DNA from: an uncultured Planctomycetia bacterium
GTDB taxonomy: Bacteria > Planctomycetota > Phycisphaerae > FEN-1346 > JAACEH01
Length of the DNA: 52,076 nucleotides
Direction: 5' to 3'
NCBI GenBank assembly: GCA_903929765.1
Contig: CAIYVX010000029.1
Location: 1-52,076 of the forward strand
The notes under the pieces are model-generated. The model saw only the letters and a program-made list of their open reading frames with translations, had not been told where the DNA came from and did not search any database. The position numbers and the translations under genes are program-made. Shown here piece by piece: positions 566 through 45,563 of the stretch; position 1 is the first letter of the stretch, and each line of letters opens with the position of its first letter.

Positions 566-643
566 GTAGCAACAGACTGAACCGCAACAACTCCCCGGCG
601 GCGGGTCACGCGCCGCCCTTTAGTGCAGAAGGACGATTCCGTT

Positions 644-1939
644 ATGGACATGATGGTCATTGAAGGCGGGCGAACGCTTCAGGGTTCGGTCAGGGTCAGC
701 GGATCGAAGAATGCGGCCCTGCCGCTGATGGCGGCGGCCCTGCTGGCCGAGGGCCGCACGACGCTGCACAACGTCCCGGACCTGATGGACATTCGGACCA
801 TGGCTTCGCTCCTGCGGTCGCTCGGGGCGGAGGTGGTCCGCAACGACGGCGACCTGGAAATCGAGGTCCGCGACGAAACGCCGATCGAGGCTTCGTACGA
901 CATCATGCGGACCATGCGGGCGGGCATCTGCGTGCTGGGACCGCTCTTGGCCCGGCGGCACGGGGCCCGGGTTTCCTATCCCGGCGGCTGCGCCATCGGG
1001 TCGCGGCCCATCGACCTGCACATCAAGGGCATGGTCTCGCTGGGGGCGAAAGTCAAAACCGAGCACGGCTACCTGGAATGCCGGGTGGGGCGCGGCGGAT
1101 TGACCGGCCGGGAAATGTACCTCGGCGGGGCCTACGGCTCGACCGTTCTGGGCACGGCCAACGTGCTGATGGCCGCCGTGCTGGCACGCGGCACGACGGT
1201 GATCGAGTGCGCCGCCTGCGAACCGGAGGTGGTCAATCTGGCCGAGTTCCTGACGGCGATGGGGGCGCAGATTGAAGGCGCGGGCACGGCGCGACTCATC
1301 GTTACCGGCGTCAAAAAACTGAAAGCGACTCAGTGGCACACGATTCCCGACCGCATCGAGGCGGCGACCATGCTGATGGCCGGAGCGGTGGCCGGCGGCA
1401 AGGTCACGGTGGAAGGCGTGCGGCGCGATCACCTGGTGGCGGTGCTGCACAAGATGAACGAAATGGGTATCAAGGTCAGCCACGACGGCAACGGGGCTCT
1501 GACGGTGACGGGCCGCAAGCGGTTCCGGCCGGTGGACGTGACGACGATGCCGTATCCGGGCTATCCGACCGACGTTCAGGCCCAGCTCATGACGCTCTTG
1601 TGTCTGACCGACGGGATCAGCGTGGTGACGGAAAAAGTTTACCCGGACCGGTTCATGCACGTGGCGGAACTGGGCCGCATGGGGGCCGAAATCCGCAAGG
1701 AAAACAACACGACCATCGTTCACGGCGTGCGCGGCCTATCGGGCGCGCCGGTGATGGCGAGCGACCTGCGGGCCTCGGCGGCGCTGGTGCTGGCCGGGCT
1801 GGTGGCTCGCGGCGAAACCGAAGTGCGGCGCATTTATCATCTGGATCGCGGGTACGAAAACCTGGACGCGAAGCTGATCAAGTTGGGGGCGAAGATCACC
1901 CGGAAGGAACAGCCGGCGGGAGAAGTGCTGAAAGATTGA
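644..1939 (+). CDS. murA: UDP-N-acetylglucosamine 1-carboxyvinyltransferase
   Basis: Cytoplasmic enzyme that transfers enolpyruvate from PEP to UDP-GlcNAc, the first committed step of peptidoglycan precursor synthesis and the target of fosfomycin. The 431-residue product has the family's usual length. SGSKNA at residues 20-25 supplies the conserved Lys/Asn pair. PGGCAIGSRPIDLH contains Cys116, matching the catalytic, fosfomycin-reactive Cys115 of E. coli MurA. The end, YHLDRGYENLDAKL, is also typical. An in-frame GTG exists at 623, but AAGGA at 629-633 is well spaced for ATG 644, and MDMMVIEGG fits known N-termini. Single gene, followed directly by repeat C1. Confidence 0.97.
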   Translation: MDMMVIEGGRTLQGSVRVSGSKNAALPLMAAALLAEGRTTLHNVPDLMDIRTMASLLRSLGAEVVRNDGDLEIEVRDETPIEASYDIMRTMRAGICVLGPLLARRHGARVSYPGGCAIGSRPIDLHIKGMVSLGAKVKTEHGYLECRVGRGGLTGREMYLGGAYGSTVLGTANVLMAAVLARGTTVIECAACEPEVVNLAEFLTAMGAQIEGAGTARLIVTGVKKLKATQWHTIPDRIEAATMLMAGAVAGGKVTVEGVRRDHLVAVLHKMNEMGIKVSHDGNGALTVTGRKRFRPVDVTTMPYPGYPTDVQAQLMTLLCLTDGISVVTEKVYPDRFMHVAELGRMGAEIRKENNTTIVHGVRGLSGAPVMASDLRASAALVLAGLVARGETEVRRIYHLDRGYENLDAKLIKLGAKITRKEQPAGEVLKD

Positions 1940-1949
1940 GGGTTATTTT

Positions 1950-2040
1950 ACCCCTCCCCCTTGACGGGGGAGGGTGGCCCTTGAGGGCCGGGTGGGGGTG
2001 CACCTGTTTCGCCCAAATCACGGAGAACTGCTGTTGTCTT
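1950..2040 (+). repeat. Repeat family C, copy C1 (left inverted repeat of the DUF559 unit)
   Basis: A hairpin (CCCCTCCCCC TTGA CGGGGGAGGG) is followed by a GGCC...GGCCGGGTG segment and GGGTGCACC. Positions 1950-1979 are identical, inverted, to 2520-2549. The copy is also similar over its full length to C5 (40507-40599), including the shared tail TTTCGCCCAAATCAC, so the unit is about 90 bp rather than just a hairpin. Confidence 0.85.
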
Positions 2041-2434
2041 TTCTCTCCTCTCCATTGACTGGAGAGGTTAGGATGCGGTTGACGACTGCGAAAATCACGG
2101 TCACCACGCCATTCAAATCTCTCAGCACCTCGTCGTTCGTGAAGCGAATTATCTTCAATCCCTGCCGTTCAAGAAATTCCTGTCGCCGTTCGTCCTCGTC
2201 CCCGCGCCCATTGTGGCTGCGACCGTCTAGTTCGATGACGAGCCGGACCGCTGCGCAGTAGTAGTCAGCTACATAGGGACCAACCGGCTGTTGCCGCCGG
2301 AACTTCAACCTGGTGCACCGTCCGTCCCGCAACCTGCCCCAGAGCAGCCGCTCTGGAACCGGCGCTTTCCGGCGTAACTGGCGGCCGCGAGCGACCATCT
2401 GCTCCGAGACCGGCGGATTCTCGCGTTCCATCAT
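2018..2434 (-). CDS. DUF559 (Vsr-like endonuclease fold) protein
   Basis: 138-residue protein. The core FRRQQPVGPYVADYYC ... LVIELDGRSHNGR ... RRQEFLERQGLKIIRF matches DUF559, a small domain related to very-short-patch-repair and other PD-(D/E)XK-type endonucleases. The EFL-type acidic residues (VIELDG) and the preceding FRRQ strand are present, so the fold looks intact. Nuclease activity is an inference from the family. The start is one of two adjacent ATGs with GGAG upstream. The last ~18 codons (SPVNGEERKD...) are encoded by a C-family hairpin at 2044-2070, so the C-terminus is repeat-derived. The gene sits exactly between inverted repeats C1 and C2, unlike any other gene here. Confidence 0.85.
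   Translation of the reverse strand: MMERENPPVSEQMVARGRQLRRKAPVPERLLWGRLRDGRCTRLKFRRQQPVGPYVADYYCAAVRLVIELDGRSHNGRGDEDERRQEFLERQGLKIIRFTNDEVLRDLNGVVTVIFAVVNRILTSPVNGEERKDNSSSP
2044..2070 (-). repeat. C-family hairpin within the DUF559 3' end
   Basis: CCTCTCC ATTGACT GGAGAGG is a diverged version of the C hairpin. It lies inside the DUF559 coding region and is translated as part of its tail. Confidence 0.6.
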
Positions 2435-2492
2435 CGTCTCCGGTGAAACAGCAAAAAAAGCAACGACAGCAACCAGCGAAATAAATGCAACC

Positions 2493-2550
2493 GGTGCACC
2501 CTCACCCGGCCGCTGAAGCGGCCACCCTCCCCCGTCAAGGGGGAGGGGTG
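2493..2550 (-). repeat. Repeat family C, copy C2 (right inverted repeat of the DUF559 unit)
   Basis: The reverse complement of C1: 30 bases identical (2520-2549 against 1950-1979), followed by GGCCGGGTGAGGGTGCACC in both copies. With C1 it brackets the DUF559 gene, hairpin ends outward. Confidence 0.85.
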
Positions 2551-2575
2551 AAGAAGAAGCAAAACAGACATCCGC

Positions 2576-3343
2576 CTATTCAAATCGCTTCTTGGGCTGG
2601 ACGCCTTCCAGGGGGGCGGACAGGGGATTGCCCGAGCCTTCCGCCGCAACCAGTTTCCAGGCGTCATTCACGCGGACATATTGCAGGCGCAGGTCGAGGT
2701 TCCAATTTTTGAAGGTCAGACGGTAAATCGCCACGCCGTCGAGCCGGGTCTGCTCCGGCGCGACCTCGACCGGCTGCATGACGAGGACCTGGAGCTTGCG
2801 GCTGTAATAGTCGCCGCCTTCGTAGAGCAAGTAGTGCGTTTGGGCGATCCATTGGCGGCGGTCGTGCGGCACGGCGCCGCCGTTGGCGGCCAGGCGGTCG
2901 AGAAGGGCGTCGTAGCGGTCGGCCAGGAGGTCGCCAAGGTCGCCGTTGACCGAGGCCAGAAGCTGATCCTGGAGCAGGAGTTCGGACCGCTGGTGCAGGC
3001 CGTGATAAAGCAGCGAACCGGCGATGAAGAGGAGCGAGAGACCGAGGGCGATGCGGGCGGGCTGGAGGCCGACGCGGGTGCCGCCGCTCGTGCGGATGCC
3101 GCGCATGGCGAACAGGGCGAGGAGGACCGAGGCCAGGGGAATGATGATCAGAATGGGTAAGCGGTAACGCACCAGCGGCAACGGCAGGTAAGGCTGATAG
3201 GCGGCCGGGAGGAGGGCCAAAGCCCCGATGGCGGCGAGGATGAGGGCGAAGACGGCCCAGCCGCTGATGGCGGCGTATTCGGGTTCGACGGCCCGGTCGA
3301 GATGGGCCTCGTCGGGCCCGGGTTTGCGGCGCTGGTCGATCAT
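2576..3343 (-). CDS. Membrane protein of unknown function
   Basis: 255 residues; I do not recognise the family. Three hydrophobic segments are visible: roughly 30-48 (ISGWAVFALILAAIGALAL), 62-80 (LPILIIIPLASVLLALFA) and 100-115. They are followed by a soluble C-terminal half (about 120-255) that ends in a beta-rich stretch (VAIYRLTFKNWNLDLRLQYV). The layout suggests a small inner-membrane protein with a large water-exposed domain. ATG at 3341-3343 has AAAGGA upstream. Monocistronic; the end abuts repeat C2. Confidence 0.7.
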   Translation of the reverse strand: MIDQRRKPGPDEAHLDRAVEPEYAAISGWAVFALILAAIGALALLPAAYQPYLPLPLVRYRLPILIIIPLASVLLALFAMRGIRTSGGTRVGLQPARIALGLSLLFIAGSLLYHGLHQRSELLLQDQLLASVNGDLGDLLADRYDALLDRLAANGGAVPHDRRQWIAQTHYLLYEGGDYYSRKLQVLVMQPVEVAPEQTRLDGVAIYRLTFKNWNLDLRLQYVRVNDAWKLVAAEGSGNPLSAPLEGVQPKKRFE

Positions 3344-3499: not shown

Positions 3500-3552
3500 A
3501 AGAAGAACACACTTTGGCCCCGATACGGCCGGGGCTTCAAAGTGTGGCACCC
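3500..3552 (-). repeat. Repeat family A, copy A2
   Basis: On the minus strand it reads GGGTGCCACACTTTGAAGC...CAAAGTGTGTTCTTCTT. This is the same element as A3/A4 but with a GCCGTATC loop instead of GCTTTGC. It lies just before the HtrA-like gene. Confidence 0.85.
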
Positions 3553-3582
3553 GGAGATCCACAGGGCATTTGAGAGGTTGAT

Positions 3583-7184: not shown

Positions 7185-7203
7185 TCGTAAAGAACGGCAG
7201 AAA

Positions 7204-7316
7204 CGGCGAATATCCAACACCCAATAGCCAATATCCAATCATGAAGTCAGATTCCGGAGCGGGAGGTTTTTCACTTCATGATTGGATATTGAGTGTTGGA
7301 TATTGGATATTCGCTG
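7204..7316. repeat. Repeat family D, copy D1: large AT-rich palindrome
   Basis: Left arm 7204-7247 (CGGCGAATATCCAAC...CATGAAGT) and right arm 7273-7316 (ACTTCATGATTGGATATTG...TTCGCTG) are near reverse complements around a 25-base centre with ATTCCGGAGCGGGAG. The composition is much more AT-rich than the surrounding genes. The right half recurs, via the minus strand of D1, at 40622-40704. Confidence 0.88.
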
Positions 7317-7382
7317 TTTCTCGGTTGTTCGCACAGTCGGGCCAGCCGACCGTGGCAGATTTTCCGAACACCAACTGACGGT

Positions 7383-8464: not shown

Positions 8465-8510
8465 GACACCCTCACCCTACCCTCTCCCCTCAAGGGAGAG
8501 GGGTGAAGAA
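8465..8510 (-). repeat. Repeat family C, copy C3
   Basis: The minus strand reads CACCCCTCTCCCTTGAGGGG...GGTAGGGTGAGGGTGTC. It lacks the GGCC...GGCC middle of other copies. It lies in the clpC leader. Confidence 0.8.
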
Positions 8511-31976: not shown

Positions 31977-32020
31977 AACGACTCTCACTGAGAAAGTTGT
32001 TGCTTTGCCGTTGCCGTTTC

Positions 32021-32080
32021 CGGGTGCCACACTTTGAAGCCCCGGCTTTGCCGGGGCCAAAGTGTGTTCTTCTTTGTCCT
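32021..32080 (+). repeat. Repeat family A, copy A3
   Basis: All 60 bases are identical to A4 at 45350-45409. GTGCCACACTTTG and CAAAGTGTG arms surround an inner GCCCCGGC TTT GCCGGGGC hairpin, ending GTTCTTCTTTGTCCT. Confidence 0.93.
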
Positions 32081-40473: not shown

Positions 40474-40506
40474 GGAAGACGCCCGACCGGGAGGCTGTGG
40501 GTTTCT

Positions 40507-40599
40507 TCACCCCTCTCCCTTGACGGGAGAGGGTGGCACGAAGTGCCGGGTGAGGGTGTACCGGTTTCGCCCAAATCACCACAGACTGCCGTTGCTTCT
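40507..40599 (+). repeat. Repeat family C, copy C5
   Basis: CACCCCTCTCCCTTGACGGG...GTGGCACGAAGTGCCGGGTGAGGGTGTACCGG, with a tail TTTCGCCCAAATCACC and CTGCCGTTG shared with C1. The fullest copy of the family. Confidence 0.9.
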
Positions 40600-40621: not shown

Positions 40622-40704
40622 AATATCCAACCCGAACTCAGACTCCCACTCCGGAATCTGACTTCATGATTGGATATTGAGTGTTGGTTATTGGATATTC
40701 GCCG
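40622..40704 (+). repeat. Repeat family D, copy D2
   Basis: AATATCCAAC then CTCCCACTCCGGAATCTG and ACTTCATGATTGGATATTG...ATTCGCCG. Matches the minus strand of D1, with a shortened left arm. It ends a few bases before the M28 peptidase stop codon. Confidence 0.88.
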
Positions 40705-40707
40705 TTT

Positions 40708-45195: not shown

Positions 45196-45563
45196 GTGAT
45201 TCCTCGCCTTTCCTTCTGCCGCTGGAAAACGCCCGCTCTCTGCGGAATTGTGCCCACAAACCAAGCCGGAATTTTACCCCTTTGCCGCCGTCCACGCAAT
45301 GATTTTCGCACTCAGATTTCCTGCGGTTTTCAGGGTAATTTCTGGAATCCGGGTGCCACACTTTGAAGCCCCGGCTTTGCCGGGGCCAAAGTGTGTTCTT
45401 CTTTGTCCTACCTTGCCTGTGGATAGCATGGACCGGCCCAGACCGGCCAAGACAAATTTGCCGCGACTCTTTCTCCGACTTCACGATTCTGCGGTTCGAT
45501 ATTTGACCTTCGCCGTTCTTCTTTTCGCTTTTCCCGTTCGACTTTATCCCGTAAGATTAAACC
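45196..45563. other. Divergent gyrA-nadE intergenic region
   Basis: Holds repeat A4 and pyrimidine-rich DNA; no gene seen. Both gyrA and nadE promoters should lie here, but I could not fix either one confidently. A stretch around 45500-45525 (GATATTTGACCTTCGCCGTTCTT) weakly resembles the end of family D. Confidence 0.6.
45350..45409 (+). repeat. Repeat family A, copy A4
   Basis: Identical over 60 bases to A3 at 32021-32080, 13 kb away, in the same orientation. Confidence 0.93.

Follow-up and report, generated by a model that had tools for sequence, protein, structure and literature searches.

The window analysed here (the whole stretch of DNA, 52,076 nucleotides) contains a DUF559 gene framed by inverted REP palindromes, and the block they form, in our judgement, quite probably pairs REPs with an enzyme in the manner of a RAYT/REPIN system, the enzyme being an unrelated nuclease, DUF559. 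We infer a mobilising role for DUF559, which is probably the partner, not recognised until now, behind the spread of these palindromes. The window element is not a RAYT, because its enzyme is not of the Y1 HUH type, and it is not a classical transposon, because no target-site duplication is seen. On balance, we also favour the broader view that a second, RAYT-independent class of REPs and REPINs exists in at least seven bacterial phyla, in which the Vsr/EDxHD nuclease DUF559 would copy GC-rich palindromes genome-wide.

The layout of the element agrees with a sequence-only reading of the same DNA. Segments 1950-1979 and 2520-2549 are exactly inverted, as that reading had claimed (30/30 bp), and the extended outer arms (1947-1979 and 2520-2552) are 97% complementary. 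Both arms continue toward the gene in the way described (1986-2008 and 2489-2511, 91% complementary), and the DUF559 open reading frame (2018-2434, minus strand; Pfam DUF559, E = 7.4e-34) lies between them. The third hairpin, said to encode the C-terminus of the protein, is present in diverged form at 2046-2068 within the 3′ end of the frame, with 74% agreement with the left palindrome as the reference copy. As noted earlier, no target-site duplication is seen at the ends of the element (1946/1947 and 2552/2553). Each arm combines the palindrome CCCTCCCCC-TTGAC-GGGGGAGGG with a small second hairpin and with a gene-pointing tail of type GGGTGAGGGTG. As single DNA strands, the REP units are predicted to form bulged or double hairpins (fold z -2.2 to -4.5). 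The features of the window are as follows.

623..1939, plus strand: MurA-like gene left of the block, marking the insertion junction (open reading frame; gene order kept in same-order relatives)
1947..1979, plus strand: left outer arm, with palindrome core at 1952-1974 (CCCTCCCCCTTGACGGGGGAGGG); 185 matches to the core pattern genome-wide
1976..1989, plus strand: second small hairpin of the left REP unit (GGCCCTTGAGGGCC), from sequence; z = -3.1 for the unit folded as single-stranded DNA
1986..2008, plus strand: left inner tail, toward the gene, 91% complementary to 2489-2511
2018..2434, minus strand: DUF559 gene, 138 aa, predicted EDxHD/Vsr-type nuclease (open reading frame, Pfam, AlphaFold model, PDB fold match)
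2046..2068, plus strand: diverged third hairpin, encoding the protein C-terminus (74% to the left palindrome)
2489..2511, minus strand: right inner tail, toward the gene, 91% complementary to 1986-2008
2508..2523, minus strand: second small hairpin of the right REP unit (GGCCGCTGAAGCGGCC), from sequence; fold z = -3.7
2520..2552, minus strand: right outer arm, with palindrome core at 2525-2547, complementary to the left arm
2576..3343, minus strand: convergent membrane-protein gene right of the block, marking the insertion junction (open reading frame; spacer in genome G005)
8480..8502, minus strand: gene-free palindrome of the window-element family (unit about 8465-8510)
40503..40594, plus strand: gene-free REP unit of the window-element family, with homology into the 3′ end of the DUF559 frame (81% over 53 bp)

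The last two entries bear out the earlier observation that the same hairpin family occurs in the window without the gene (8480-8502 and ~40503-40594). Across the 3.83-Mb genome, a pattern allowing one mismatch finds 185 such palindromes, and the reversed-pattern control finds 0. Besides the gene in the window there is only one other standalone DUF559 gene in this genome. It, too, lies between inverted palindromes, which belong to another subtype and are 100% complementary over 49 bp. The window holds further repeats of other kinds. A second dispersed palindrome family (TCCGGGTGCCACACTTTGAAGCCCCGGC...) is found at 3500-3555, 32019-32080 and 45348-45409, with two copies identical over 62 bp. An AT-rich inverted pair (ACTTCATGATTGGATATTGAGTGTTGG) with 49-bp arms 25 bp apart occupies 7199-7321, and a further copy of this repeat lies at 40643-40707, ~50 bp beyond the gene-free unit at 40503-40594.

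Framing by palindromes is general for DUF559 genes and extends across phyla. Within the same class, long inverted repeats lie on both sides, within 350 bp, in 16 of 19 standalone DUF559 loci (scores 16-49), and all 414 of 414 control windows for these loci score 12 or less. A cross-phylum set was assembled from 80 loci that are the best matches to a planctomycete query, not a random sample; among the 71 with full flanks, scores reach at least 14 in 49 and at least 18 in 44, as compared to 18 (~1%) and 3 of 1773 control windows, respectively. Clear arms (score of at least 17) are found in Planctomycetota, Pseudomonadota, Chloroflexota, Rokubacteria, Nitrospira, Binatia and Cyanobacteria, among others. 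Of the 71 loci, 22 lack clear arms, which counts against the DUF559-REP pairing. In Bradyrhizobium, inverted palindromes frame 61 of 70 DUF559 loci. The sequence-only reading had named relatives without such flanks as evidence that would speak against it; the relatives proved to be mostly framed (16/19, 49/71 and 61/70 loci). The arms are most commonly arranged as CCCTCTCCC-loop-GGGAGAGGG, followed by a second hairpin or a short linker and then by GGGTGAGGG. Outside the class, palindromes are abundant (8-461 copies) in most DUF559 genomes tested.

An AlphaFold model of the window protein (pLDDT 84) was compared with the PDB, where the solved DUF559-like protein 3hrl matched first, followed by the homing endonuclease I-Bth0305I (3r3p; E = 4e-4, prob 1.0); the match to Vsr (1vsr) was weaker (prob 0.91, E = 0.21). 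The predicted fold is thus of the EDxHD/Vsr nuclease type. Pfam returned DUF559 and a weak REase match only for this protein, and the Y1 HUH tyrosine nuclease domain (PF01797) was not found. Residue E28 is conserved in 168 of 169 loci and D57, H74 and D81 in 169 of 169 each, where H74 (like E68) carries a bias in that 80 of the 169 loci were found with patterns including the ExDGxxH stretch. We take E28, D57, H74 and D81 to correspond to the letters of the EDxHD motif, and on this correspondence the active site appears intact in DUF559 loci. Thirty-nine DUF559 genes show dN/dS of 0.07-0.09 and no stops, and the gene is under strong purifying selection. Elsewhere, two planctomycete copies (L021 and L029) carry an in-frame stop, and some DUF559 copies are therefore decaying. 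Six further loci (L003, at G000:C97:76399-76608, and L031-L035) hold a partial DUF559 match inside open frames of about 950-1220 codons; this match probably marks a nuclease domain within a large protein, where the fold is put to another use.

The arms are matched to each other and to the protein they frame. In 56 elements from outside Bradyrhizobium, arm similarity is 0.49 within an element versus 0.14 between elements, and in 46 of the 56 the best-matching right arm is that of the same element. Arm similarity also follows protein similarity in this set (Mantel rho 0.28, p ≤ 0.0005), a correlation to which common descent contributes. Bradyrhizobium contains at least six REP subtypes, each with its own DUF559 type, a pairing assigned by inspection of the best-matching query and locus rather than from a tree; orthology contributes to it, because most DUF559 types keep their locus. 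These comparisons indicate that the REP subtype follows the DUF559 clade.

Presence of the gene and number of palindromes go together. Among 61 class genomes, 13 with and 48 without standalone DUF559, at least ten palindromes are found in 13 of 13 DUF559 genomes (10-383 copies) versus 9 of the 48 others (Fisher p = 7.6e-8), and a rank test of palindrome count against DUF559 presence gives p = 2.6e-7, both statistics ignoring relatedness. The nine genomes with at least ten palindromes yet no standalone DUF559 count against the pairing; they could reflect loss of DUF559, gaps in the MAGs or another enzyme. All 15 Bradyrhizobium genomes in the A state (DUF559 type A at pheS-pheT) carry further A-type REPs, and 29 of the 84 others have none (p = 0.0012). 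It counts against the pairing that A-type-like REPs are also present in many Bradyrhizobium genomes that lack the A-type gene at this junction; the pattern used also catches the related A2 subtype.

Empty sites, which the sequence-only reading had proposed to look for, exist both at the window junction and in Bradyrhizobium. The spacer between the MurA-like gene and the convergent membrane-protein gene is 636 bp here versus 19 bp in the same-order genome G005. The pheS-pheT junction of Bradyrhizobium is found empty, with DUF559 type A and its REP, with DUF559 type B and another REP, with a single REP, with two arms and no gene, or with other genes, and these states require at least 31 changes on the flank tree. 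Homologous exchange could lie behind part of these changes. Synonymous divergence at this junction is higher for DUF559 (dS 0.8-1.0) than for pheS and pheT (dS 0.2-0.35). In some species (L165-L168) the junction holds an unrelated small gene, by eye presumably an ASCH-domain protein, or other genes, and it is therefore a general insertion spot. A 4-bp GTGA/ATGA considered as a target-site duplication at pheS-pheT was set aside: it flanks the whole insert, not the arms, and its presence on both sides is explained by selection, because stop and start codons are needed.

Gene-free derivatives were found as well. Close gene-free pairs of A-type REPs in Bradyrhizobium are convergent in 13 of 15 cases and mostly 85-139 bp long, which is REPIN-like. 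One of these pairs, the 257-bp element L291, has kept both arms and both coding ends and lost the middle of the DUF559 gene; it sits about 25 kb from a parent-type element, and its site is empty in the sister species G183. In genome G062, the 279-bp insert at the pheS-pheT junction (L163) has two inverted arms but lacks a DUF559 frame, and the arms of the DUF559 gene found elsewhere in that genome (L092) share its loop.

The gene-bearing unit itself moves rarely, because 258 of 275 close Bradyrhizobium DUF559 pairs share their locus. A search for recent whole-element movement between unrelated Bradyrhizobium sites gave a best pair only 81% identical. An identical DUF559 pair in genome G097 (L227/L228, G097:C16) was rejected as a recent transposition since it lies inside a longer inverted duplicate; that duplicate (>4.6 kb, 100% identical, on one contig) is a recent duplication or an assembly artefact. 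The earlier suggestion that DUF559 mobilises the palindromes, or is carried by them, is thus supported in part. The cross-phylum link, the clade-specific subtypes and the gene-free and deleted derivatives speak for it, and the 258/275 pairs at the same locus speak against a freely jumping 600-bp block. A block fixed in place while the repeats move independently had been named as evidence against the suggestion, and this is partly what we find, as the repeats have spread far more than the gene, which is also the case for RAYTs (PMC8049555); but empty sites and site turnover indicate that the block has been gained and lost over longer times.

In the mechanism that we propose, DUF559 would recognise the folded, bulged REP hairpin, or a convergent pair of hairpins, and would nick or cut it. 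Strand processing or break repair may then insert copies of the REP pair at new sites. An enzyme of the Vsr type that recognises distorted DNA could, by analogy, nick a bulged hairpin. The ~185 gene-free copies would represent non-autonomous derivatives. The DUF559 gene, like a RAYT gene, mostly stays in place as the repeats spread.

Several other explanations must be weighed against a mobilising DUF559. Another enzyme, RAYT/Y1 or other, might spread the palindromes, with DUF559 persisting between REPs as safe spots or being moved by REP recombination. Palindromes do occur in genomes without standalone DUF559, and genes other than DUF559 also occupy the pheS-pheT junction. IS elements are, moreover, known to insert into REPs (PMC1525189). 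We regard this account as unlikely. Although palindrome and Y1 counts show a weak correlation (rho 0.41), Y1_Tnp counts in the class genomes do not differ by DUF559 presence (p = 0.21), and genome G018 has DUF559 and 10 palindromes with no Y1 match. None of 20 Y1/RAYT loci in palindrome-bearing planctomycete genomes (L267-L286) has a DUF559-type palindrome within ~1 kb, which disfavours RAYT as the mobiliser. Most of them carry different inverted repeats of their own (e.g., GAGCCCGCTTCAGCGGGCTT, AGCCCAGGGCCTTTGGCCCTGGGT), so the method recovers the known RAYT-REP link and separates the DUF559-REP link from it; the Y1/RAYT hairpins of these genomes are apparently a separate REP system. The agreement between REP subtype and DUF559 clade likewise argues against a carried gene.

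Alternatively, DUF559 might act in a homing-like manner, cutting REPs or junctions so that the gene-bearing copy spreads by gene conversion; the moving unit would then be the gene with its homology arms, and REP-only copies would be by-products. I-Bth0305I is the nearest functionally characterised fold, and the higher dS of DUF559 than of its neighbours is expected if the insert is exchanged. It also fits that one junction alternates between DUF559 type A, DUF559 type B, a single REP and no insert (≥31 changes), but the same alternation is expected from ordinary homologous exchange of the junction. Since gene-bearing copies are far fewer than the gene-free ones, which occur as convergent pairs, and since unrelated sites rarely hold whole elements, we regard homing as improbable. 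It is very improbable that the pairing is a coincidence, with DUF559 serving the host, for example in Vsr-like mismatch repair, and the hairpins being terminators or general intergenic palindromes beside small genes. Terminators on either side of one gene would not have loop and tail sequence in common, or match ~185 copies elsewhere in the genome, and such pairs occur in about 1% of control windows at the same loci. Strong purifying selection on the gene would suit a host role, as would the DUF559-domain protein VsrA of Caulobacter, which is SOS-induced, functionally linked to a cytosine methyltransferase and treated as a mismatch-repair nuclease (PMC12907096). A repair role of the Caulobacter protein does not exclude the DUF559-REP pairing.

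If DUF559 does mobilise these palindromes, a role can be assigned to a large family of unknown function, and a widespread class of RAYT-less REPs, for which to our knowledge there has been no known enzyme so far, gains both an enzyme and a mechanism. Long-lived enzyme-repeat pairs of the RAYT kind would then have arisen at least twice from unrelated nucleases, and the "Vsr-like" DUF559 proteins now discussed as repair enzymes would acquire a second reading. We found no paper on a link between DUF559 and REPs (or inverted repeats) in the open-licence literature, and earlier publication elsewhere is possible.

Among known systems, I-Bth0305I and Vsr share with DUF559 the fold and the invariant E, D, H and D residues. 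DUF559 consists of one short domain and lacks the extended DNA-binding region of I-Bth0305I, and it differs from both enzymes in its setting, which is between inverted REPs and not in an intron or beside a methyltransferase. Derivatives such as L291, which are internally deleted and without an intact gene but retain the inverted end on each side, resemble MITEs, except that no target-site duplication and no classical DDE transposase are seen; unlike classical transposons and MITEs, there are no near-identical gene-bearing copies at unrelated sites (best 81%). The CGTC-tagged and untagged REPs (PMC3733652) are by their description similar, as abundant palindromic repeats without association to a RAYT or transposase gene, whereas the palindromes here have a candidate enzyme partner. 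The closest likeness is to RAYT (TnpA-REP)/REPIN systems (PMC3116915, PMC8049555, PMC8266576), in which a small chromosomal nuclease gene is also flanked by inverted palindromes, the same palindromes are dispersed as singlets and convergent doublets (the doublets here being the Bradyrhizobium A-type pairs), and each enzyme has its own repeat subtype. RAYT genes mostly stay at one locus while their repeats spread (PMC8049555), as does the DUF559 gene. The two systems occur side by side within genomes, each with different repeats, those of DUF559 being of the CCCTCTCCC type with a GGGTGAGGG tail, and they differ in their enzymes: RAYT is a HUH tyrosine enzyme, and DUF559 is predicted to be a metal-dependent nuclease of the EDxHD/Vsr type.
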